A stretch of DNA of 64,000 nt from Pirellulales bacterium. Lineage in GTDB: Bacteria; Planctomycetota; Planctomycetia; Pirellulales; JAEUIK01. The translations under genes and the position numbers were made by a program. The notes beneath the pieces were generated by a model, which saw nothing but the letters and a program-made list of their open reading frames with translations, did no database searches and had not been told where the DNA came from. This document shows, piece after piece, positions 11,998 through 27,348 of this stretch (position 1 is its first letter; each line of letters opens with the position of its first letter). The stretch is taken from the NCBI GenBank assembly GCA_019694435.1, contig JAIBBZ010000003.1, forward strand, positions 248,001-312,000, given 5' to 3'.

Positions 11998-12438
11998 TCA
12001 GCAAATTGCCGGCGCGGCACAACGCTGCTCGGAGGCAACCTTGCCGCCCGATACGCCTGGCCCGGCAAACAGACCGAAGTGCAGCTTGCGCAATTCCTCA
12101 CGCACTCGCTCCGTGGCGTCTTCCACGGCGCTGGTTAGCATGGGATTCACGGTTCCGCTACCCGCCAGTTCCAGCGTGACATCGCCGTCGATCGCCTCGA
12201 TGACGTCGAGCAGCGTGATCTGCGTGGCCGGGCGAGCCAGGGTGTAGCCACCCTCGACACCCCGGGTCGAAACCAGCAGCCCATGATTGACCAGGCTGCG
12301 TAGGATTTGCAGCAGAAAGCGCTCCGGCAGATCCGCCATCCGGGCCAACTCTCGGCATGGTACGGGATTCGAGTCCCCGGCAGCGGCCAGCGCCGTCAAC
12401 GCACGCACTCCGTAACTCACTGTGTGCGAAAGTCTCAT
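11998..12438 (-). CDS. Rrf2 family transcriptional regulator (copy 1)
   Basis: A 146-residue winged-helix protein. The Rrf2 signature is clear: M-R-L-S-H-T-V-S-Y-G-V-R-A-L at the start, the recognition helix region I-P/L-P-E-R-F-L-L-Q-I-L-R-S-L, the wing G-L-L-V-S-T-R-G-V-E-G-G-Y-T-L-A-R, and I-T-L-L-D-V-I-E-A-I-D-G. Unlike IscR and NsrR it has no three-cysteine cluster in the central region. Its only cysteines are one before the recognition helix and two in the tail. So an Fe-S cofactor of the IscR type is not supported. A second Rrf2 gene lies 369 bases upstream on the same strand. Confidence 0.9.
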   Translation of the reverse strand: MRLSHTVSYGVRALTALAAAGDSNPVPCRELARMADLPERFLLQILRSLVNHGLLVSTRGVEGGYTLARPATQITLLDVIEAIDGDVTLELAGSGTVNPMLTSAVEDATERVREELRKLHFGLFAGPGVSGGKVASEQRCAAPAIC

Positions 12439-12807: not shown

Positions 12808-12819
12808 TTACGAGGTGGC
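12799..12819 (-). terminator. Perfect hairpin with the Rrf2 copy 2 stop codon in its loop
   Basis: The sequence gccacctcg-tta-cgaggtggc forms a 9-bp perfect stem with a 3-base loop. The loop is exactly the TAA stop of the Rrf2 gene on the minus strand. No T-run follows on that strand, so this is a candidate for termination or mRNA 3'-end protection rather than a textbook terminator. Confidence 0.5.
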
Positions 12820-13269
12820 GTTCGTCTGCTGAGAGTTGATCGCCGAGGGCACGTCGACGACCGGCGAGTCGCCCTGGTCGGGAAGCAGGTCAGACAACTT
12901 GACGGCAGCCAATCCTGCACGCGCCTGGTCGGAAATTGCCCGGAGCGTGCTTTCGAGCAAATCGCGGCTTCCGGGTGGAAGTTGATCGCCCAGGGGCATC
13001 CCGCTGGCGATAGGTCCGTCAACCGCCTCGATCAAATCCAACAAAGAGATTTCCGTGGGCTTGCGCTCCAGCGTGTAGCCCCCTTCGACGCCGCGCGACG
13101 ACTGCAGGATGCCGTGCGTGACGAGATTGCGGAGAATTTGCAGCAGAAATCGCTCGGGCATCTGCCCCTGCGCTGCCATGCGGCTGCACGGGACCGGCGA
13201 ACCCGTCTTGTCCTGGGCTAGCTGCAGGGTCGCCTGGATTGCGTAGGCGACTGTGCGAGACAGTTTCAT
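12808..13269 (-). CDS. Rrf2 family transcriptional regulator (copy 2)
   Basis: A 153-residue paralogue of the neighbouring Rrf2 protein, sharing the core M-P-E-R-F-L-L-Q-I-L-R-N-L and the wing S-S-R-G-V-E-G-G-Y-T-L-E-R, then I-S-L-L-D-L-I-E-A-V-D-G-P. It also lacks the IscR/NsrR cysteine triad. Its single cysteine is in V-P-C-S-R, the same position as V-P-C-R-E in copy 1, which might be a redox or ligand-sensing residue. The C-terminal 60 residues differ between the copies. Tandem placement suggests duplication and divergence. Targets are unknown. Confidence 0.9.
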   Translation of the reverse strand: MKLSRTVAYAIQATLQLAQDKTGSPVPCSRMAAQGQMPERFLLQILRNLVTHGILQSSRGVEGGYTLERKPTEISLLDLIEAVDGPIASGMPLGDQLPPGSRDLLESTLRAISDQARAGLAAVKLSDLLPDQGDSPVVDVPSAINSQQTNATS

Positions 13270-17768: not shown

Positions 17769-18818
17769 TCAGCCGGTAGAGTCGGGCTCGACGGCCGAGT
17801 GTGCCGCCAGCGCCAGCGCGCCGAAGACCACCATTTCCTCGCCCAGGGCGGCCGGGCAGATCTCGTAGCTGTCGGCCAACGGCGGAAAGACATACCGCGC
17901 CACCTGCGCGCGAAGCGGTTCGAACAACAGCGTTTCGCCGGCCAACGACACTCCTCCGCCGATCACGATCTTTTCGGGCGAAACAAGCGTGATGACCTGG
18001 GCAATCGCCCAGCCCAACGCCTGCCAGGCCCGCTGGAGAACCTCGAGGGCCAGTTCGTTGCCCTCGGCCGCCGCAGCCACCACGTGCCGCGCGGTGAGCT
18101 GTTCGAGCCGCCCGTCGCAGCGTTCCCACAAGTCGGCCGCGTGTTCCTCGGCCGCGGCCTCGGTTTCGATCAACCGCTGTCGCATGTGCTCCGGGCCTAA
18201 CCGGCCGCCGCCGAGATGCGGGCTGAGCAGCCGGGTGGCCTCGGGCACCATGCGCTCGCGCGCAGCGGCGGCAATTCCCAGCCCGCTGGCCATCGACTCG
18301 ACCGTTTCCTCGGGCCGATCCGCGAGCAATCCGGGACGCAGATGACCGATTTCGGCCGCCGCTCGGCCGTGTCCCTGGAACACGCGGCGGTCGACGATTA
18401 GCCCGCCGCCGATGCCGGTGCCGATCGTCACATAGAACACGGGATTCGCCCCCTGCCCCGCGCCGAGCGACGCTTCGGCCAGGCCCGCCAGGTCGGCATC
18501 ATTCCCGATCCATGCGGGCAACCCGAACGTCTTGCCGCACCACTCGACCAGCGGAAACTCGTCCCAGCCTTCGATGTGATGGCTCGTAATCACGCGCCCA
18601 GAGCGTGCGTCGACCGGTCCACCAAAGCCGATGCCAATCCCGCGAACCGGATACCGCGCCAGCAGCGGCTCTGCGGCGGCGGCGATTTCGCGCAAGATGC
18701 CTGTGGCACCGGCGGCGGGCGAGACGTCGCGGCGCTCAAGCGCGAGCAATTCTGCCGACCGGCCCGAGCCGATTCCGAGCTGCAGCTTCGTGCCGCCGAT
18801 CTCAATGCCCAGAAACAT
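17769..18818 (-). CDS. ROK family sugar kinase-like protein
   Basis: A 349-residue protein of the ROK fold. It starts M-F-L-G-I-E-I-G-G-T-K-L (phosphate-binding loop), has G-I-G-F-G-G-P-V-D, the catalytic region W-I-G-N-D-A-D-L-A-G-L-A-E, and the G-T-G-I-G-G-G-L loop. The usual ROK zinc motif C-x-C-G-x-x-G-C after E-I-G-H is absent: here E-I-G-H-L-R-P-G-L-L-A is followed by no cysteines. Substrate therefore cannot be read off, and glucokinase is only one option. No N-terminal DNA-binding domain is present, so it is an enzyme-type ROK protein. It follows the SIS isomerase gene by 30 bases. Confidence 0.82.
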   Translation of the reverse strand: MFLGIEIGGTKLQLGIGSGRSAELLALERRDVSPAAGATGILREIAAAAEPLLARYPVRGIGIGFGGPVDARSGRVITSHHIEGWDEFPLVEWCGKTFGLPAWIGNDADLAGLAEASLGAGQGANPVFYVTIGTGIGGGLIVDRRVFQGHGRAAAEIGHLRPGLLADRPEETVESMASGLGIAAAARERMVPEATRLLSPHLGGGRLGPEHMRQRLIETEAAAEEHAADLWERCDGRLEQLTARHVVAAAAEGNELALEVLQRAWQALGWAIAQVITLVSPEKIVIGGGVSLAGETLLFEPLRAQVARYVFPPLADSYEICPAALGEEMVVFGALALAAHSAVEPDSTG

Positions 18819-18848: not shown

Positions 18849-19481
18849 TCAGCGAGCGACGGCCGCGTGGCCGTTCTTGGCGTGCCGACCTTCGTGATTG
18901 ATGCGGGCAAAGACGTCGTTGAGCACCCAGTGGAAAATGCACAGGTGGATGCTCTCGACCATCCCCATGTCGTCCAACTCGACGTGGAGCCCGTCGTGCT
19001 GCATCTGCTTGAGCTTGCCGCCACCGAAGCCGGTCAACCCGAATGTCTTCAGCCCGTGGCGGTTGGCCCAATCGACCGCGGCCAGCACGTTGGGGCTATT
19101 GCCCGAACCGCTGATAGCGATGACCAGGTCGCCGGCGCGACCGTAGTTCATCAACTGCTGCACGAATATCTGGTCGTAACCGACGTCGTTGCCGACGGCC
19201 AGGATCCAGCCCAGGTTGTCGGTCAGGCTCATCACCTTGAGCCGCTTCTTCGATTCGTCTTTCAGATCGCATTCGCGCAGCGAGCTCTTGCCCAGGTCCT
19301 CGCTCATGTGCGTGGCCGTCGTGCCCGAGCCGCCGTTGCCGAAGATGTAGACGAAGCGGTCTTGTTCCCAGGCCTCGTACAGCCGGTCGGCCATGCGAGC
19401 GATGGCCCCCTGATCGACCCGGGCGATTTCCTGGTTCAGACGATCGAGATACGCGGGCAATTCGAGCTTTGCGCCAAGCAT
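18849..19481 (-). CDS. SIS-domain sugar-phosphate isomerase (GmhA-like)
   Basis: A 210-residue SIS-domain protein. The phosphosugar loop reads F-G-N-G-G-S-G-T-T-A-T-H, followed by A-I-S-G-S-G-N-S-P-N-V and, near the C-terminus, V-E-S-I-H-L-C-I-F-H, which matches the histidine segment of sedoheptulose-7-phosphate isomerase. GmhA makes the heptose precursor of lipopolysaccharide. DiaA-type proteins share the fold, so function is probable rather than certain. The start at 19481 (MLGAKLELPAY) is supported by the duplicated copy at 21230, which keeps the same start and upstream bases. It forms a likely two-gene unit with the ROK kinase. Confidence 0.82.
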   Translation of the reverse strand: MLGAKLELPAYLDRLNQEIARVDQGAIARMADRLYEAWEQDRFVYIFGNGGSGTTATHMSEDLGKSSLRECDLKDESKKRLKVMSLTDNLGWILAVGNDVGYDQIFVQQLMNYGRAGDLVIAISGSGNSPNVLAAVDWANRHGLKTFGLTGFGGGKLKQMQHDGLHVELDDMGMVESIHLCIFHWVLNDVFARINHEGRHAKNGHAAVAR

Positions 19482-19556
19482 GGACCGAGCGAAGCCTCCT
19501 CGTGCGGACGAGTCACCGGGCCCACGGCACATCGCGCGCGGGCCCCTTGCCGTCAG
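19302..19556. repeat. Direct duplication, copy A (SIS gene 5' end plus upstream region)
   Basis: About 255 bases covering the first 60 codons of the SIS gene and roughly 75 bases upstream are repeated in the same orientation at 21052-21307. Long identical runs include cgatttcctggtt, cgcgggcaattcgagc and gcgccaagcatggaccgag. Similarity fades beyond both ends. Confidence 0.85.
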
Positions 19557-19811
19557 TGTACAAGCCCGGCCGGATTCCGGCCATCGGCGTGCCACCCGGC
19601 GCGGAGTATGGCTTCGGCGCAGCCCAGGCGTGGCCGCGCGGAAGTCTGCAAAGCTGGGCCACGTGGCACCTGCATGGACTGGCAAGTTGCGACTTAATCA
19701 TCCGTCGCGCGCCACGGCATTGTCCGTAGCTGCCCGCTGGTTGAAACGAATCGGACCCTGCGGGCCGTGGAAACACGGAGCCTCGCATCACCCCCCGAGC
19801 ACCCTATCTTC

Positions 19812-20969
19812 CTAATCCTTGGAGGGGGCTTGAGCGTAGCGTTTCATCAATTCCTGGATTGCCTCGCCGCACGCCGAGAGGCCGGAACTCTCGCCGGTGT
19901 TGGTGCAGGCGACGGCCGCGAAATCCCTTTCCGGGAGCAGCCAGATCAAGGCCTGCGAATTCGTGTTACTGCCGCCATGAAACAGCGCGCGCCCCAGCGC
20001 ACTGTCGAGCACAATCCACCCGCAACCGTACTTTCCACGCTCCGCCGGAGCGTCGACTTTCCCGACGTGCAGGTGCTCAACGTTCTCTTGTTGGGACAAC
20101 AGCGGGGCAGGCTCGTGCTTCAAATGCCATTGGGCATAGCGCGCGTAATCGGCAATCGAAAGATGAACCGTTCCGCAGGCAGCGTATACCGATGGGTTCT
20201 CTGCGCCCGCGATCCGGGGATCGATCGGACTTCCATCAGCAACATGCCCCCACAGCAACGGTGGTTTCAATTCCTTCGCAAGAGCCAGCGTACGAAAATC
20301 GGCCGTGTCCATTGTAAGCGGCTGGAACACGTGTCGGCGCATCAGGTTCTCAAAGCTGTCGCCGCCTTTGGTTTCCAACATCGCAGCCGCGACAACGTAG
20401 CCGAGGTTGGAGTAGTGGTAACTGCCGCGAGGGTGTTGCGGCTTGATCGCGAGAATCAATCCCAGCATTCTGCGACGTTCAAGCTGTGGGCTGGCCTGCT
20501 CCTCAAAGAACGAAAGCCACTCGTCTGCCTTGATGGTCTGGAAGTCTTTCAGGTCGGAAGCCAGACCGCTTTGGTGCGACAGCAATTCATCGAGCGTTAC
20601 GTCGCGGAGAGCAGCATGAAGATGCTTCTCTCCGGCGCGCGACCACACCTGGCCGATCGTCGTGTCCCAGCCGATCTTGCCAGCCTCGACAAGCACTGCC
20701 GCCAGAGTGGCCGTCATGGACTTCGTGCACGAGCCGAGCGGGTGGCGATCCGACAGCTCGACGCTCTCGTCCGTCCTACGCTTGCGAACACCGCTGCATT
20801 GCATTGTGACCGTGCCTGCAGAGCGAACGACCGCGATGGTGAGCGAAGGAACCTTATGCTTGCGGCAGACGTCCGCCAGCATTTCCTGGAGCCCAGCATC
20901 CTGGGACGCCGGCTCCACGGCAAAGCCGCAGCTCGGCAATAAGAGGATCGCGAGGACAGCCAGGACCAT
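19812..20969 (-). CDS. Serine hydrolase of the beta-lactamase class C / penicillin-binding fold
   Basis: A 385-residue protein from the ATG at 20969. It begins with a hydrophobic stretch ending L-L-P-S-C, a possible lipoprotein signal. The catalytic motifs are S-C-T-K (SxxK) in L-G-S-C-T-K-S-M, Y-S-N in Y-H-Y-S-N-L-G-Y, and H-G-G-S-N in place of K-T-G. Such proteins are esterases, D-aminopeptidases or carboxypeptidases more often than true beta-lactamases. In-frame GTG codons lie upstream at 21005 and 21020. The frame stays open further back to 21230 and joins the truncated SIS-gene copy, so the real start is uncertain. Confidence 0.8.
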   Translation of the reverse strand: MVLAVLAILLLPSCGFAVEPASQDAGLQEMLADVCRKHKVPSLTIAVVRSAGTVTMQCSGVRKRRTDESVELSDRHPLGSCTKSMTATLAAVLVEAGKIGWDTTIGQVWSRAGEKHLHAALRDVTLDELLSHQSGLASDLKDFQTIKADEWLSFFEEQASPQLERRRMLGLILAIKPQHPRGSYHYSNLGYVVAAAMLETKGGDSFENLMRRHVFQPLTMDTADFRTLALAKELKPPLLWGHVADGSPIDPRIAGAENPSVYAACGTVHLSIADYARYAQWHLKHEPAPLLSQQENVEHLHVGKVDAPAERGKYGCGWIVLDSALGRALFHGGSNTNSQALIWLLPERDFAAVACTNTGESSGLSACGEAIQELMKRYAQAPSKD

Positions 20970-21051
20970 CGCGACCGTTCGTGCAACTACTGCGCATCGA
21001 TCCACAAGGACATTGCCCACGAAAGAAGGCAAACAGATGTTACAAACCAGG

Positions 21052-21230
21052 CTCATCTGCGCGGCCGTCGCAGCCGAGCCGCCGTTGCCGCAGATGCAAA
21101 CACAGCGGTCTTGTTCCCAGGCCCCGAACAGCCGCTCGGCCATGCGGGCAATGACCCCCAGATCGAGTCGGGCGATTTCCTGGTTCCGGCGATCGAGACC
21201 CGCGGGCAATTCGAGCGTTGCGCCAAGCAT
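21052..21230 (-). pseudogene. Truncated 5' copy of the SIS isomerase gene
   Basis: The minus-strand frame from the ATG at 21230 reads M-L-G-A-T-L-E-L-P-A-G-L-D-R-R-N-Q-E-I-A and continues to F/C-x-C-G-N-G-G-S-A-A-T-A, matching the first 60 residues of the intact SIS protein. It then breaks off at the phosphosugar loop. Several changes (F to C, Y to C, Y to G, L to R) suggest relaxed selection. No stop codon has arisen and the frame runs on in phase into the serine hydrolase gene. Confidence 0.75.
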
Positions 21231-21307
21231 GGACCGAGCGAAGCCTCTTCGTGCGGTTGAACCATCGGCCCACGGCACGTCGCGCGCGGCCCCGTTGCTT
21301 GCAGCGT
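21052..21307. repeat. Direct duplication, copy B
   Basis: Second copy of the segment at 19302-19556, in the same orientation. It includes the start codon and about 75 bases upstream of the truncated SIS gene. The two copies bracket the serine hydrolase gene. Confidence 0.85.
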
Positions 21308-21400
21308 ACCTGTTCCGCCGGACCGCAGCCATTCGCGGGCTGGTTTCACCTCGGCTACAATTGCTGGGCGAACGGACCGAGTAATGAGGGGAACAAGGGC

Positions 21401-21805
21401 ATGCCCTCCGGCTTGTCGGTCGAGATTCAGCTCTACCTCGCTGGACTGGCGATCGCGTTCGCGGCGCCGCTGTTCGTGTTCTGGCTGCTCGCCCCGTCGC
21501 TCGCGCATTTTCTCCGCGCGATATTTGCCCAGCCCGAGGTGGAACGGTTTTGGAAGCGGTTGACGATCATCGTCTTCGTCGCCGCGTCGGTGTCGTCGGG
21601 CATCGCCTACCATCCCGACGCTTCGGCGAATAGTGACCTGGCCGTGCTGACGTGGAGTTTTGCCGACCAGGTCAAGCAGACCCTCGACAACTTGCTCTGG
21701 GCCATGTTGGCCATTTTCTTGCCGCTCCTGCTCGCCTACATGGTCCTGTACGCGGGCCGCCGAGCGGTCGCGCCGACGCAGGGAACGCTCGAAGGCGAAC
21801 GCTAA
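21401..21805 (+). CDS. Small membrane protein, three predicted TM segments (first of a coupled pair)
   Basis: A 134-residue protein with hydrophobic segments near residues 10-30, 55-70 and 100-120. Between the second and third lies a polar loop containing G-I-A-Y-H-P-D-A-S-A-N-S-D. I do not recognise the family. The stop codon overlaps the start of the next gene in TAATG, implying translational coupling. Layout and several positions (F-x-R-x-I/L-F near the first loop, S-x-G-I/L after the second hydrophobic segment) resemble the downstream protein, so the two may be distant paralogues that assemble together. Confidence 0.6.
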   Translation: MPSGLSVEIQLYLAGLAIAFAAPLFVFWLLAPSLAHFLRAIFAQPEVERFWKRLTIIVFVAASVSSGIAYHPDASANSDLAVLTWSFADQVKQTLDNLLWAMLAIFLPLLLAYMVLYAGRRAVAPTQGTLEGER

Positions 21806-22260
21806 TGCCGACGTTTCTGGGATTCTATTTGTTCGCCTTGCTCGGCACGTGTGTCGTTGCCGCGGTCCTCTACTTCTCGATCGGCGAACAAGCGGGGCAG
21901 TTTGCTCGTTCTCTGTTCGGCACCGAACGCGGCACGGCCCTGGCGCGTTCGTTTCGCCTCATGCTCGTGATCAGTTGCCTGATCGGCGGCCTGTCGACCC
22001 AATGGTACGGATGCCGCGGCTACTCCGATTACGAAGCCGTGGCGCAAGACCGTCGCTTGATGCTACAAAAGACCACGGAGCAGATCGCCAGCGCCGTCAC
22101 CTATGGCGTCAAGTATCTGTTGGGTGCCGGGGCCGTGGGCACGCTGATGTTTGCCGTCTTACGACGTCGTCACGCAGCAGCATCCGCGGCAACGTCCAGT
22201 GACTGCTCCTCTCGCGCCCACACGACAGCCGCGCCTCGCCAGCCCGATCGAATCGAGTGA
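21805..22260 (+). CDS. Small membrane protein, three predicted TM segments (second of a coupled pair)
   Basis: A 151-residue protein with hydrophobic stretches near residues 5-25, 50-68 and 105-122, then a polar Ala/Ser/Arg-rich tail of about 30 residues. The loop after the second segment holds W-Y-G-C-R-G-Y-S-D-Y-E-A. Its ATG overlaps the stop of the preceding gene (TAATG at 21803-21807), so the two products are probably made in fixed ratio. No characterised family is recognised. Codon use and G+C look like the core genome, which suggests it is an established gene. Confidence 0.6.
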   Translation: MPTFLGFYLFALLGTCVVAAVLYFSIGEQAGQFARSLFGTERGTALARSFRLMLVISCLIGGLSTQWYGCRGYSDYEAVAQDRRLMLQKTTEQIASAVTYGVKYLLGAGAVGTLMFAVLRRRHAAASAATSSDCSSRAHTTAAPRQPDRIE

Positions 22261-23079
22261 GGCAACAAACGCCCAGGCGAGTTTGTGAGACTCGTCAAGG
22301 GCCCGCTTCCTAACGTCGCCGGCATTGCGTCGCAGCGTGGATCGCACGCGGGTGTGGAGAGCAGCGAACCCAACCTACCGCACCGCGGCGGCCGCCAGGC
22401 CCCGAATCAACCCTCCACCCCTACGTCCGATCGAAAAAGTCGCCATTTGGTTTCTGGCAACTTTTTCTCTGTGGCCCCCGTACGACGATCTGACCACCGG
22501 CACGCGGAACACATCGGGCAATTGCTGAACGCAGGCGGCGTGTGTCGGTTCTTCAATCGCCAGCAGCGAGGCTGCACGATCAGCCTAATGGCGAGGCAGC
22601 CGCTTGCTTGAACGTCCCCCGATTGCCTCGTCCCAAGTGTCCATTGACGGACACCTGCACTCTGGAGCGATTTGGACAGCGACTCCGCGCAACCCGGGTC
22701 CATTTCGTGGCCCAGTTTGTCCCGCTTAGTGCGCTGGGGCGCAACAACTATCGGTACCGTAGTTTCGGACACGTCTGTTGGCGTTATCGGGACAATTTGC
22801 GATGCCTGAAATTCTCTCGGCGACGCCGCAGGTATAATAAAGAAGATTCCCCTACCGCTTGTGATCCCCCTATAGCCCCATTCGGGGACGCCGATCCAAG
22901 GGTTGGGCCCGCCTGCCGGAAACCCGGAACGCCTGTCGCGGCAATTCGTTGCGCGATAGGTCCCTGTCCACAGGTCCGGCCGCTCATCAACTGAGTTAGA
23001 GCGCCCTGGAGCGCTGCGCAATGAGGAAATGGGGCCAGGCCGGAGTTGTCGCGAGGGATTCAGCTCAGGAGCTCCGCAC
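22261..23079. other. Gene-poor region, 0.8 kb
   Basis: I see no gene I can support here. Several open frames exist on both strands but none has a recognisable motif or convincing coding pattern. Short inverted repeats such as ccccattcgggg near 22883-22894 are present. The last bases supply the ribosome-binding site (caggagct) of the gene at 23080. It may be decayed DNA or an unrecognised non-coding element. Confidence 0.5.
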
Positions 23080-23853
23080 ATGTCATCCGTCAGTACCAGT
23101 GCCGGCTACAAATTCGCACTGTCGGCGCAAATGGTTCCGCTTCCGGCTGTCGAAACGGACAGCGAACGCAATGCGGCCCTCCAACGTGGCCGTCAATTGC
23201 GCGAGGCGATCTGGAAGGCCCTCTTGGCCGAGCGCGAGAGGAGCGAAGTTTCAGACGGTGACTCGTTCTGGAAAGAAAACGTCAAGGACGTCTGGAAGCC
23301 GTTGCTCCAGCCGGGGGCGTCGATCCGGTATGTCGGCGATAACGGCCCCGATCTGGTGTTGAAGAATACGGCTGGCTTGCTGAGTCTGACGGGTGCAGAT
23401 CTTGGCTACCGGTTTGCGGAAGTTCGCGGGCTGCTGTACGCCACCGTAACGACCGTGTTGCTCCACTGCGACCCGGGTCGGCCGGAGATTTCAGGCAGCA
23501 GCAACTCGCTGGGTTACCACAAGACAGAGGCTCTCCCGCGAACCATGTGGGCCCAGCGGGGGCCAAACCATGCCAAGGCGTTTGGGACACTCCTGTTGGC
23601 GTGGGCCAAACGAAACCAGGCCCTTCGGCAGGAGCTCGACCGAAACGTTTTGGATGGCACAGCATCATATGCGGATCATGCGGAAGCACTCGGCATGATC
23701 TTCGTTTGGGAGCTTGTGGAGCGCGACCCGGACGAAGTCGCCGGCAAGCTACAGACCCTGATGATTCGACAAGGCGAGTACATCGGGGTGCTGCGCGATT
23801 CGACTACCGCTGCGCGTTGGGTCTGGGAAGCGGCGCAGTACCTGGCAAGGTAA
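23080..23853 (+). CDS. Protein of unknown function, 257 residues
   Basis: The ATG at 23080 is preceded by CAGGAG about 8 bases upstream. The protein is soluble and mostly helical, with many charged residues in the first 60 (E-R-N-A-A-L-Q-R-G-R-Q-L-R-E-A-I-W) and Trp-rich segments (S-F-W-K-E-N-V-K-D-V-W-K-P-L). No signal peptide, membrane segment or known motif is visible. Its stop is 18 bases from the stop of the convergent gene on the other strand. The surroundings are gene-poor and repeat-bearing, so it may be an accessory gene acquired by transfer. Confidence 0.6.
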   Translation: MSSVSTSAGYKFALSAQMVPLPAVETDSERNAALQRGRQLREAIWKALLAERERSEVSDGDSFWKENVKDVWKPLLQPGASIRYVGDNGPDLVLKNTAGLLSLTGADLGYRFAEVRGLLYATVTTVLLHCDPGRPEISGSSNSLGYHKTEALPRTMWAQRGPNHAKAFGTLLLAWAKRNQALRQELDRNVLDGTASYADHAEALGMIFVWELVERDPDEVAGKLQTLMIRQGEYIGVLRDSTTAARWVWEAAQYLAR

Positions 23854-23871
23854 AAAGGCCACGGCCAGGGC

Positions 23872-24417
23872 CTATTTCGCCTTCCGCCGCGCTCGCGGGA
23901 CCACATACACCTGGGGTCCACCCGCAATTGCGATGTTCTTCAAGATGGCCGTGACGGCCTTCTCCGTGGCCTGCTGTGCCGTGGGGATGATCTCACCGGC
24001 CAGATTCCGGACCGGTTCGCCTTCCGCCAAGTCCTGTTTCAAGCAGGCAATAATTTCGGGGTCTTCCGAGGCGGCTTCCAAGTCGCGGATGCGGATCGGA
24101 CTGCCCTGGTGGACACTCGGGTCCAACACGAGTTGCCAACGGGGACTGTAGATGGTGGCCAGGATTTCCGTCATGGGTTGTGCTCCCACGCCGTCGGGGC
24201 GCTGCAGGGTGGAATGCGAATCCAACGACGTAAGCAGCGTGCGGCAGCGTTGTTGAAGGTCCACCAGCAGGCGGTCCATGTCGCTGGCCTGGAGGGACAG
24301 TATTGCTTCGGCGATTTCGCGTGCCTCGTTGAGCTGCGAATCGGTTTTGCCGGTTGTAGGGCAGGGGTAAAGCAAGGTCACCGCAGGCGAAAGTGAAACA
24401 GTCCCGAGTCTGGTCAT
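23872..24417 (-). CDS. Protein of unknown function, 181 residues
   Basis: A mostly hydrophilic protein with no membrane segment, ending in a basic tail (R-A-R-R-K-A-K). The central part is helical and acidic (Q-L-N-E-A-R-E-I-A-E-A-I-L...D-M-D-R-L-L-V-D-L). I chose the ATG at 24417 because CCGGAG lies about 11 bases upstream; an in-frame ATG at 24444 would add nine residues. The Q-Q-A-T-E-K-A-V-T-A-I-L-K-N segment near the end could be a helix for oligomerisation. Not recognised. Convergent with the gene ending at 23853. Confidence 0.5.
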   Translation of the reverse strand: MTRLGTVSLSPAVTLLYPCPTTGKTDSQLNEAREIAEAILSLQASDMDRLLVDLQQRCRTLLTSLDSHSTLQRPDGVGAQPMTEILATIYSPRWQLVLDPSVHQGSPIRIRDLEAASEDPEIIACLKQDLAEGEPVRNLAGEIIPTAQQATEKAVTAILKNIAIAGGPQVYVVPRARRKAK

Positions 24418-25306
24418 ATTGTACACAGCTCCGGTGAACGACATGTAAATCCCAGATGGGGATCGAAGACTGACGGTCAGTCTCGTCCTCGGATGCAAGA
24501 TCGTCAAGCTCGTTGCTGGTCGCTGCCCTGGCACAGCGACCGACCGACACTCGATGGGACCGGAAGAGAAGCGTTGATTAGCTGGCGAAGGAGTCGTAAC
24601 CCATCAGCAAATCGACATATTTTGGTGGGCGCAGTCGCAAAAAACGTCGGTGCTCCCAAGCACTACGCGAATGGCGTGCCGCAGGTTCAATCGGAGCCGC
24701 TACGCATCTGCAGCAGGCGCCGGCTACATCTCCTTGTCGCAGCGCATTAGCCACTCGGGTGTGCGCAAAGTATAGGAACTCACTTGCCACTTGGGACACA
24801 AGAACCGGCGAGGTCGTTCGCACGCTGCGCGGACTCGACGAAGCTCACGGTTTGGGCGGGGCCTGCTAGGACGTTGAGCCGCGCAAAGGCCAAAAAAATC
24901 TATGGCCGTGTTCTTCTTGACCCACGCCACGAACTACCCAGGGTGGACCCATCGTAAGGGTGCGTCAGGATTGCCGGCAGGTCCGACCAGCCCACAGCCA
25001 TGACACCGCCGGGCAGCGTGCGGACCTGCACCGGCGGGCCGTCGTCGTAGGACTCCGCGGCGACCTGGGCATAGAGGACAGAAAAGGTGTCAGGGCGCAG
25101 AAAGATCCAGAATCCACTCGCTGCCGCGCATAGCGCGGCTGGCTTCGCATCGACAGGCTGCACCTGGCACTTATTTGACCTGTCTGCCAGGGTTCGCTCA
25201 AGCGATTGCAATTGCCCGGGAAGGGAGCCGGTAAAGCCGGGGGCCCGCGGGTCGGTTTTCGATGCCGCGCGCGCTCGCCGACGGGAGGCTATGCCACTTG
25301 CGGCGC
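24418..25306. other. Gene-poor region, 0.9 kb
   Basis: No gene can be supported. The 24540-24900 part has lower G+C than the flanks, with many interrupted short frames on both strands. The 24960-25290 part holds a minus-strand stretch without stops that continues out of frame behind the MFS gene but has no recognisable motif. It may be a decayed gene. Confidence 0.5.
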
Positions 25307-27196
25307 CTATCCCGCTGCGGCCGCTTCGCGCTTGCCGCGCTCGACGTTGACGAACAGCGACAGGCTCAGGCCGATGAAGAAGAAGACCAGCAGGCTCAAA
25401 ATGGCCAGCCGCGCGCTGTGCGTCGCCAGCACGATGCCGCCGTAGACCAGGTTGCCCATCCAACTCGTGGCCTTGCCCGAGAGGTTGAAGAAACCGAAGA
25501 ACTCGGCCGTGTGCTGGGGCGGGGTCATCACGCCCATCATGGCCCGCGCCACGCTTTGTGTGCCGCCCATCACGGCCGAGAGCACGGCTGCCATGATCCA
25601 GAAGTGCAGCTTGGTCGTGACGAACCACGCCGCGACGAGCAGGCCGACCCAGATCAACAGCGTGCCGATCAGCGCGCGTTTTTGGCCGATCTTGTCGCTC
25701 AACCAGCCAACGACCAGCGCCCCCGGCAGCGCCAACACCTGCACCATCAGCACCAGCAGAATCAGGTCGAACAGGCCGAAGCCCAATTCGCTCGTGGCAA
25801 ATGCCGACGCCTGGTTGATGACGGTGACCATGCCGTCGTTGTAGAAGAGAAAGCCGATCAGGAAGATGGCCAGCGTGCGATAGACCATCACGCTGCGCAG
25901 GGTCTGGCCGACCTTGCTCACCGCGCCCCGCGCGGCCGAGAGAAACCCGACGCGCTGCCCGGGCACGCCCGCGTCGCGGAGAAACAGCAGCGTTGGAATG
26001 CTGAACAAGGCCCACCACGCACCGAGAATGAACAGTCCCACGCGCAGCCTCGGCGGCACCACGGCGTCGTCGCCGCTCACCTCGCCGGCGGTCCAACCGA
26101 AGCTGACCTGATTGGGATGCGAGGCCAGGCCTTCCTTGGAAGGCGTCATGCGTCCGTCGGCCTTCAAATCCCAGGCGCGAAACGCATCGACCCGGCTGGC
26201 CCAGATGTAGCCGCCCATGGCCGGCGAGCCGTAGGTGCCGAAATCGAACAGCAGCTCGACCGCACGGGCCCCTTCGCTGCCGCGCGTTTGCGAGCGAATC
26301 TCCAGCGCGTTGATGGTCGCCAGCGGATCGCTGCCGCCGAGATCTTTGAGCCCGACGTTCAAACGCCCGTCGCGCACGCCGATCGAATAGTCGACTTCGG
26401 CAAACTTGTCGGCCGTGCTGTCCAGCGGGCCAAAGGCCTGGTCTTCGAGCGTGATTTGCATCTGATCGCGGCTGCGGGCCGCATCACCCAGCACAACGTG
26501 GACGTCGTACGTATCGGGCGGCAAAGCGACCTCAAAGGTCGCGTCGGCCGAGGCGTTGTAGTCCTCGCGCAGCACGTCGGCCTTGGGCAGCGGCAGCACG
26601 CTGCGGTCGAGCATTACGCCCAGGGCCAGCACCAGCGCCAAGGCACCACCGATGTAGCCCAGCCCGAACCCCTGTGCCGACACGCGGTTGATCGTCTCGT
26701 CGGTCGTGATTTCGGGCAGGAAACCGTTGTAGGGTCCCAGCGACAGCTCGAACATCAAGCTGGAGAGGAAAAACAGGATCGTAAAGGTCCAGGCAAAACT
26801 GTGCGGCAGCAGGCCGGGCAGCGCGATGGCCGCGGCCCCCAACATGGCCGTCCAGATCAACCATCGCCGCTTGGCCGCTCGGGCATCGGCCACGGCCCCG
26901 ACCAAGGGGGACAAGAACGCCGCCAACAGCATCGAACCGCCGATCACCCAGGCATAGGCCGTCTCGCCCAGGTCGGTCGGCGAGATCTCGCCCCCCAGGC
27001 GCCCATTGAGCCAGGCGGCCGTATCGACCGCGGCGGGGCTATCGGCGCACCAGACGACGCGCGTCGTGTAGAGCATGACGATCGTGATGAGCAGCGTCGA
27101 AAACGCGCTGCTCGACCAGTCGTACATGCTCCATGCCCAGACCTCGCGGCGCGTCCCCTCGCGGCGGACGTTCGACGTCGTGTCAGCAGTGGCCAT
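25307..27196 (-). CDS. MFS transporter of the Atg22/UMF1 type with a large inserted domain
   Basis: A 629-residue membrane protein starting M-A-T-A-D-T-T at 27196. The opening W-A-W-S-M-Y-D-W-S-S-S-A-F-S-T is the hallmark of the UMF1/Atg22 branch of the major facilitator superfamily. About six membrane segments precede residue 200 and six follow residue 385. Between them, residues 201-381 form a soluble, beta-rich insert containing P-P-D-T-Y-D-V-H-V-V-L-G-D and V-R-D-G-R-L-N-V-G-L-K-D. That pattern resembles malectin-like carbohydrate-binding domains. The insert would sit at the centre of the fold, between the two halves. Substrate unknown. Confidence 0.8.
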   Translation of the reverse strand: MATADTTSNVRREGTRREVWAWSMYDWSSSAFSTLLITIVMLYTTRVVWCADSPAAVDTAAWLNGRLGGEISPTDLGETAYAWVIGGSMLLAAFLSPLVGAVADARAAKRRWLIWTAMLGAAAIALPGLLPHSFAWTFTILFFLSSLMFELSLGPYNGFLPEITTDETINRVSAQGFGLGYIGGALALVLALGVMLDRSVLPLPKADVLREDYNASADATFEVALPPDTYDVHVVLGDAARSRDQMQITLEDQAFGPLDSTADKFAEVDYSIGVRDGRLNVGLKDLGGSDPLATINALEIRSQTRGSEGARAVELLFDFGTYGSPAMGGYIWASRVDAFRAWDLKADGRMTPSKEGLASHPNQVSFGWTAGEVSGDDAVVPPRLRVGLFILGAWWALFSIPTLLFLRDAGVPGQRVGFLSAARGAVSKVGQTLRSVMVYRTLAIFLIGFLFYNDGMVTVINQASAFATSELGFGLFDLILLVLMVQVLALPGALVVGWLSDKIGQKRALIGTLLIWVGLLVAAWFVTTKLHFWIMAAVLSAVMGGTQSVARAMMGVMTPPQHTAEFFGFFNLSGKATSWMGNLVYGGIVLATHSARLAILSLLVFFFIGLSLSLFVNVERGKREAAAAG

Positions 27197-27348
27197 GCGA
27201 CGCTCGCGAGTTCGCAGAGGGTGGCTCGTGGGAGGGGGCGCCGACGGCGCGACCGCCATCCATCACGACGCTTTCCTGCGTCCGCGCGATTATTGCGCAA
27301 CGTGGCCGCGCAAACAAGCTCGATCGCCGAGCTGGTGGACCGGCCGTG

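Follow-up and report, generated by a model that had tools for sequence, protein, structure and literature searches.

A 64-kb stretch of planctomycete DNA (here, the window) carries the head of a SIS isomerase gene twice, once on each side of a serine hydrolase gene. The repeat is very probably the product of a local partial duplication of approximately 290 bp, comprising SIS codons 1 to 60 and the DNA upstream of them, and the new copy is now decaying 5' of the hydrolase gene. Copy 1 (positions 19302 to 19592, minus strand) consists of SIS codons 1 to 60 and approximately 110 nt of upstream DNA. Copy 2 (21051 to 21340, minus strand), a pseudogene fragment of the SIS head with its upstream DNA, is 86% identical to copy 1, and its divergence is that of neutral decay.

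The repeat and its gene context

The intact source gene (18849 to 19481, minus strand; start ATG at 19481) encodes a SIS_2 or GmhA-like isomerase of 210 amino acids (PF13580, E = 2.5e-17). The protein matches the gmhA model TIGR00441 at 5e-27, which is below the equivalog cutoff, and is related to phosphoheptose isomerase; its orthologs within the family are 76 to 81% identical. Downstream of it lies its conserved partner, a gene for a ROK-family sugar kinase (17769 to 18818, minus strand; PF00480, 1.8e-48). An S12-type serine hydrolase of the Beta-lactamase family PF00144 (5e-45) is encoded at 19812 to 21005, also on the minus strand, with its start at GTG 21005 or ATG 20969. Because the SIS and hydrolase genes are both on the minus strand, copy 2 lies upstream (5') of the hydrolase gene, and on the coding strand upstream DNA with the SIS head is followed by the hydrolase and then by upstream DNA with the complete SIS gene.

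When the SIS head region was compared with the window by blastn, one other match was found, pairing 19302 to 19549 with 21051 to 21298 (86.3% identity over 249 nt, one 1-nt gap, E = 9.8e-75). A preliminary description of this DNA had placed a same-orientation repeat of approximately 255 bases, containing 60 SIS codons and approximately 75 bases upstream of them, at 19302 to 19556 and 21052 to 21307; these coordinates proved right (86%, E = 1e-74). It had also read the copies as a duplication with the hydrolase in between, and with 86% identity over 249 nt their similarity is indeed far above chance. Weaker ungapped similarity of approximately 74% extends the repeat to 19592 and 21340. From 19557 to 19595, 13 of 39 positions differ between the copies, and beyond this point the similarity is random. 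At SIS codon 60, the repeat ends abruptly, in agreement with the earlier placement of the truncation of copy 2 in the phosphosugar-loop region.

The 60 codons (19302 to 19481) differ from copy 2 at 24 positions with no indels, and the 75 nt upstream of them differ at 12 positions and by one 1-nt gap; the longest run of identity between the copies is 30 nt (19469 to 19498). An alignment with a count of substitutions by codon position, which the preliminary description had proposed as a check, gave 4 substitutions at first, 11 at second, and 9 at third positions over 59 codons. Together, the 24 nucleotide differences in these first 59 codons change 16 codons, and none creates a stop in copy 2. 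An open reading frame from 19812 to 21332 continues in frame through both the SIS head of copy 2 and the hydrolase.

Local repeats of this kind occur elsewhere in the genome. Within the 64 kb, a repeat-finding tool detected no other direct repeats of at least 60 nt, and comparison of the window with itself by blast detected a weaker 145-nt pair at 12185 and 13016. This pair (72%) falls within neighboring regulator genes on the minus strand (11998 to 12438 and 12808 to 13269), which look Rrf2-like by eye and are apparent tandem paralogs. In 400 kb of other DNA from the same genome, there are several local direct repeats of 100 to 960 nt, mostly diverged gene-family members or low-complexity DNA. 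One pair of 277 nt is 95% identical (L154, 10621 to 10897 and 19404 to 19680, corresponding to approximately 90.6 and 99.4 kb of G000:C3), and both of its copies code for a fragment of a membrane protein. Since 464 kb of this genome contain these further local repeats, a small local duplication is nothing exceptional in it.

Origin and decay of the second copy

Across the SIS heads of 68 relatives, identity reaches no more than 66% with copy 2 and 73% with copy 1, compared with 86% between the two copies. A maximum-likelihood tree built from 177 nt groups the copies as sisters (UFBoot 100, SH-aLRT 65), with a branch length of 0.005 for copy 1 and 0.15 for copy 2. When the 24 differences in codons 1 to 59 were polarized, 15 were derived in copy 2, 1 was derived in copy 1, and 8 were unclear. 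The changes in copy 2 include Y11G and H58Q, which remove a Tyr and a His kept in all 68 relatives. Judged by these comparisons of sequence, copy 2 is a local, decaying gene fragment that derives from the SIS gene of its own genome and not from that of another species.

The number of nonsynonymous codons in copy 2 (16) is close to the 16.7 expected under neutrality; because the share of amino acid changes equals the neutral expectation, copy 2 is taken to be decaying. In neutral simulations, the probability that copy 2 would have acquired at least one stop was only 0.36, so that the frame stays open by chance in 64% of cases and does not argue for a function. As the neutral expectation fits, we rejected the idea that selection keeps the frame of copy 2 open. 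By contrast, the hydrolase has a dN/dS of approximately 0.16 relative to its nearest homolog, indicating that this gene is maintained. The substitution patterns thus place the SIS gene and the hydrolase under purifying selection, and copy 2 is not maintained as SIS coding sequence.

The locus in related genomes

We compared the locus with 69 SIS loci from a scan of species-representative genomes, three of which encode distant SIS proteins from other phyla, and with six SIS loci from a scan of the family, the window's own included. The common gene order in relatives is SIS, ROK, a small gene, DapB, and a threonine synthase-like gene. The genes upstream of SIS frequently include an Atg22-like transporter or ThiC and otherwise vary. 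In the window, an Atg22-like MFS transporter is encoded at 25307 to 27259 on the minus strand; its halves are split by a long stretch, and residues 235 to 322 weakly match a galactose-binding-like domain (PF21254).

A second SIS head was absent from the 69 loci and the family loci, and a hydrolase of the same kind did not adjoin SIS in any of them; several of these contigs end near SIS, so that the upstream side was covered in only a portion of the loci. The single weak hydrolase match among the relatives' loci (21%, in L090) is more than 4 kb from SIS. The preliminary description held that relatives with the same layout and two full SIS genes would speak against it, and none of the loci examined contains two full copies. 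Approximately 5.7 kb of the window between copy 1 and the transporter, containing the hydrolase and the genes at 21401 to 24534, has no counterpart in the relatives' loci.

The genes that fill the remainder of this space, at 21401 to 22260 (plus strand) and 23080 to 24534, have no Pfam, NCBIfam, or PHROG match. In a search of 57 genomes, the stretch from 21401 to 21805 was found in two others and that from 23080 to 23853 in none. Among the SIS loci compared, a SIS-ROK pair typical of Planctomycetes was also present, at approximately 65% identity, in two MAGs labeled Rhodothermia/Rhodothermales (L085 and L090), which reflects either transfer or a binning error.

The hydrolase

The hydrolase scores 154 bits against PF00144, for which the gathering cutoff is 27. 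Its translation contains the motifs SCTK, YSN, and HGG (SxxK, YxN, and HxG), and its N-terminus contains a hydrophobic stretch, MVLAVLAILLLPSC, that resembles a signal peptide or lipobox. These motifs and the signal peptide are shared with S12 or AmpC-like serine hydrolases, the PF00144 family of DD-peptidases, class C beta-lactamases, and esterases. The best match among solved structures is 2qmi, a PBP-related beta-lactamase (1.4e-15), and no NCBIfam equivalog cutoff was reached. Classification as a class C beta-lactamase was rejected (NCBIfam bla_class_C, 45.5 bits versus a cutoff of 415); the protein is not one of the recognized resistance beta-lactamases.

The nearest homolog, 73% identical, is found in genome G057, which belongs to another family in the same order. 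Because this homolog begins at the signal peptide, without a SIS-like extension, the hydrolase in the window is likely to have its own start near 21005 (GTG) or 20969 (ATG). This would leave 45 to 80 bp between the hydrolase start and the SIS-derived stretch.

Mechanism and alternative explanations

Whereas the outcome of the duplication can be read from the two copies, the route to it has to be reconstructed. Approximately 290 bp were duplicated in the window's lineage after its split from all sampled relatives, and the sequence shows the new copy immediately 5' of the serine hydrolase gene and the original SIS gene intact 3' of the hydrolase. Illegitimate recombination is the likely cause. 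The event may have been a tandem duplication that spanned the hydrolase, the upstream DNA, and the SIS head, with later loss of the extra outer hydrolase; or the hydrolase may have been inserted with duplication of the target stretch, a route that is inseparable here from the first. No second hydrolase copy, remnant, or 3'-flank repeat was found upstream of copy 2, in the rest of the window, or in other parts of the genome, and the tandem-duplication route must therefore assume a lost copy. Partial duplications with novel junctions, as seen here, are also known from merodiploid formation and homology-facilitated illegitimate recombination in transformation (PMC3784515); those duplications are 100 to 900 kb long and arise during DNA uptake, whereas the one in the window is approximately 0.3 kb.

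Compatible with this partial duplication is a reading that takes the same event and adds a selective reason and a claim about expression. The duplication would have been fixed by selection because it brought the SIS promoter and leader upstream of a hydrolase gene that was silent or weakly expressed and that would now be expressed from them, perhaps as a fusion or by reinitiation. Tandem duplication through illegitimate recombination is documented as a way for a gene to capture a neighbor's promoter (PMC11111574, citing Anderson and Roth 1978, Blount 2012, and Li and Bock 2019, with older Salmonella and E. coli cases). The geometry of those captures, in which an upstream region and a gene head are joined in front of another gene while the donor stays intact, is the geometry seen here, and by this analogy capture by SIS-derived DNA is possible. 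The window differs in having no second copy of the captured gene and only a putative promoter, and its event is of some age, the head copy having decayed to 86%. Since only approximately 45 to 80 bp separate the SIS-derived stretch from the start codon, transcription of the hydrolase probably starts in SIS-derived DNA or further upstream, and the frame between the two is open. However, no conserved promoter was found, and a consensus scan of the region detected no sigma-70-like promoter on either strand. The 75 nt upstream have diverged by 16%, which is not distinctly less than neutral, it would be unusual for a fusion to carry a Sec signal 60 to 80 residues inside, and the open frame has the chance probability given above. 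Overall, we regard promoter capture under selection as a tentative proposal. That the SIS-head copy and the hydrolase form one chimeric gene, with the SIS promoter and 60 codons serving as leader of a secreted hydrolase, seems to us very improbable.

The preliminary description had suggested that a whole SIS gene was duplicated and that the 3' part of the second copy was then replaced by the hydrolase. Consistent with such a history, copy 2 begins within the DNA upstream of SIS and keeps the frame as far as codon 60, as a truncated gene copy would, and 9 nt at its junction, ATGAGCCTG, are also present at SIS codons 84 to 86. A hand-picked global alignment of SIS homology past codon 60 beat all 1,000 shuffles. 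Control pieces from the same window set this result in context, as a fraction of 0.06 to 0.57 of them equaled the real score when the longer ranges of the junction were used (20942 to 21050 and 20891 to 21050), and up to 0.99 did so with the shortest. For the same reason, we rejected the idea that SIS homology continues past an internal deletion running from one ATGAGC word (codon 59) to another (codon 84). Replacement of a full copy predicts remnants of the tail unless it was complete. In the junction DNA that separates the hydrolase from codon 60 of copy 2 (20970 to 21050, minus strand), and over the ranges 20942 to 21050 and 20891 to 21050, codons 61 to 210 left no significant trace. On the other side, the intergenic DNA from the hydrolase stop to copy 1 (19593 to 19811, minus strand) shows no SIS-tail or ROK homology, with 211 of 300 shuffles scoring as well against codons 61 to 210. 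Because the SIS tail is untraceable on both sides of the hydrolase, and with two full copies in no relative examined, duplication of the whole gene is unsupported and, in our assessment, unlikely.

Integration by a single crossover of foreign DNA carrying the hydrolase and another species' SIS head is scarcely credible: such a crossover would leave direct repeats around its insert, and the hydrolase is patchy (best own-family match 39%, against 73% in a different family; 1 other of 396 genomes of the order above 60%) with a GC3 of 0.70 both here and in G057 versus 0.85 in SIS, but copy 2 is no closer to other species' SIS genes and is sister to copy 1, and in G057 the hydrolase homolog and the SIS gene are on different contigs. 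The dS to G057 is higher for the hydrolase (1.15) than for SIS (0.78), so that a recent origin of the hydrolase by transfer from the lineage of G057 is unsupported. As for a mobile element, the window has no tRNA and the neighboring proteins have no PHROG match, and this candidate was rejected.

Under the partial duplication that we favor, the copies still form direct repeats around the hydrolase, and it had been proposed that homologous recombination between them could delete the gene cleanly. This is doubtful with copies that are 86% identical and share at most 30 nt of uninterrupted identity, and a crossover in the coding part would leave the remaining SIS gene with Y11G, L15R, and other changes. 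The hydrolase is unlikely to be lost often by this path.

Significance

The repeat in the window is a real, ordinary scar of local DNA duplication and by itself alters nothing known. At this one locus, a small illegitimate duplication is cleanly recorded, with a frozen source, a neutrally drifting copy, and a conserved neighboring gene. If the SIS head and the hydrolase did form a chimeric gene, a planctomycete would offer a natural and traceable example of the capture of a gene head through duplication. If the hydrolase is expressed by way of the SIS-derived upstream DNA, the locus would show promoter capture, a process known mainly from laboratory selections, occurring in nature.
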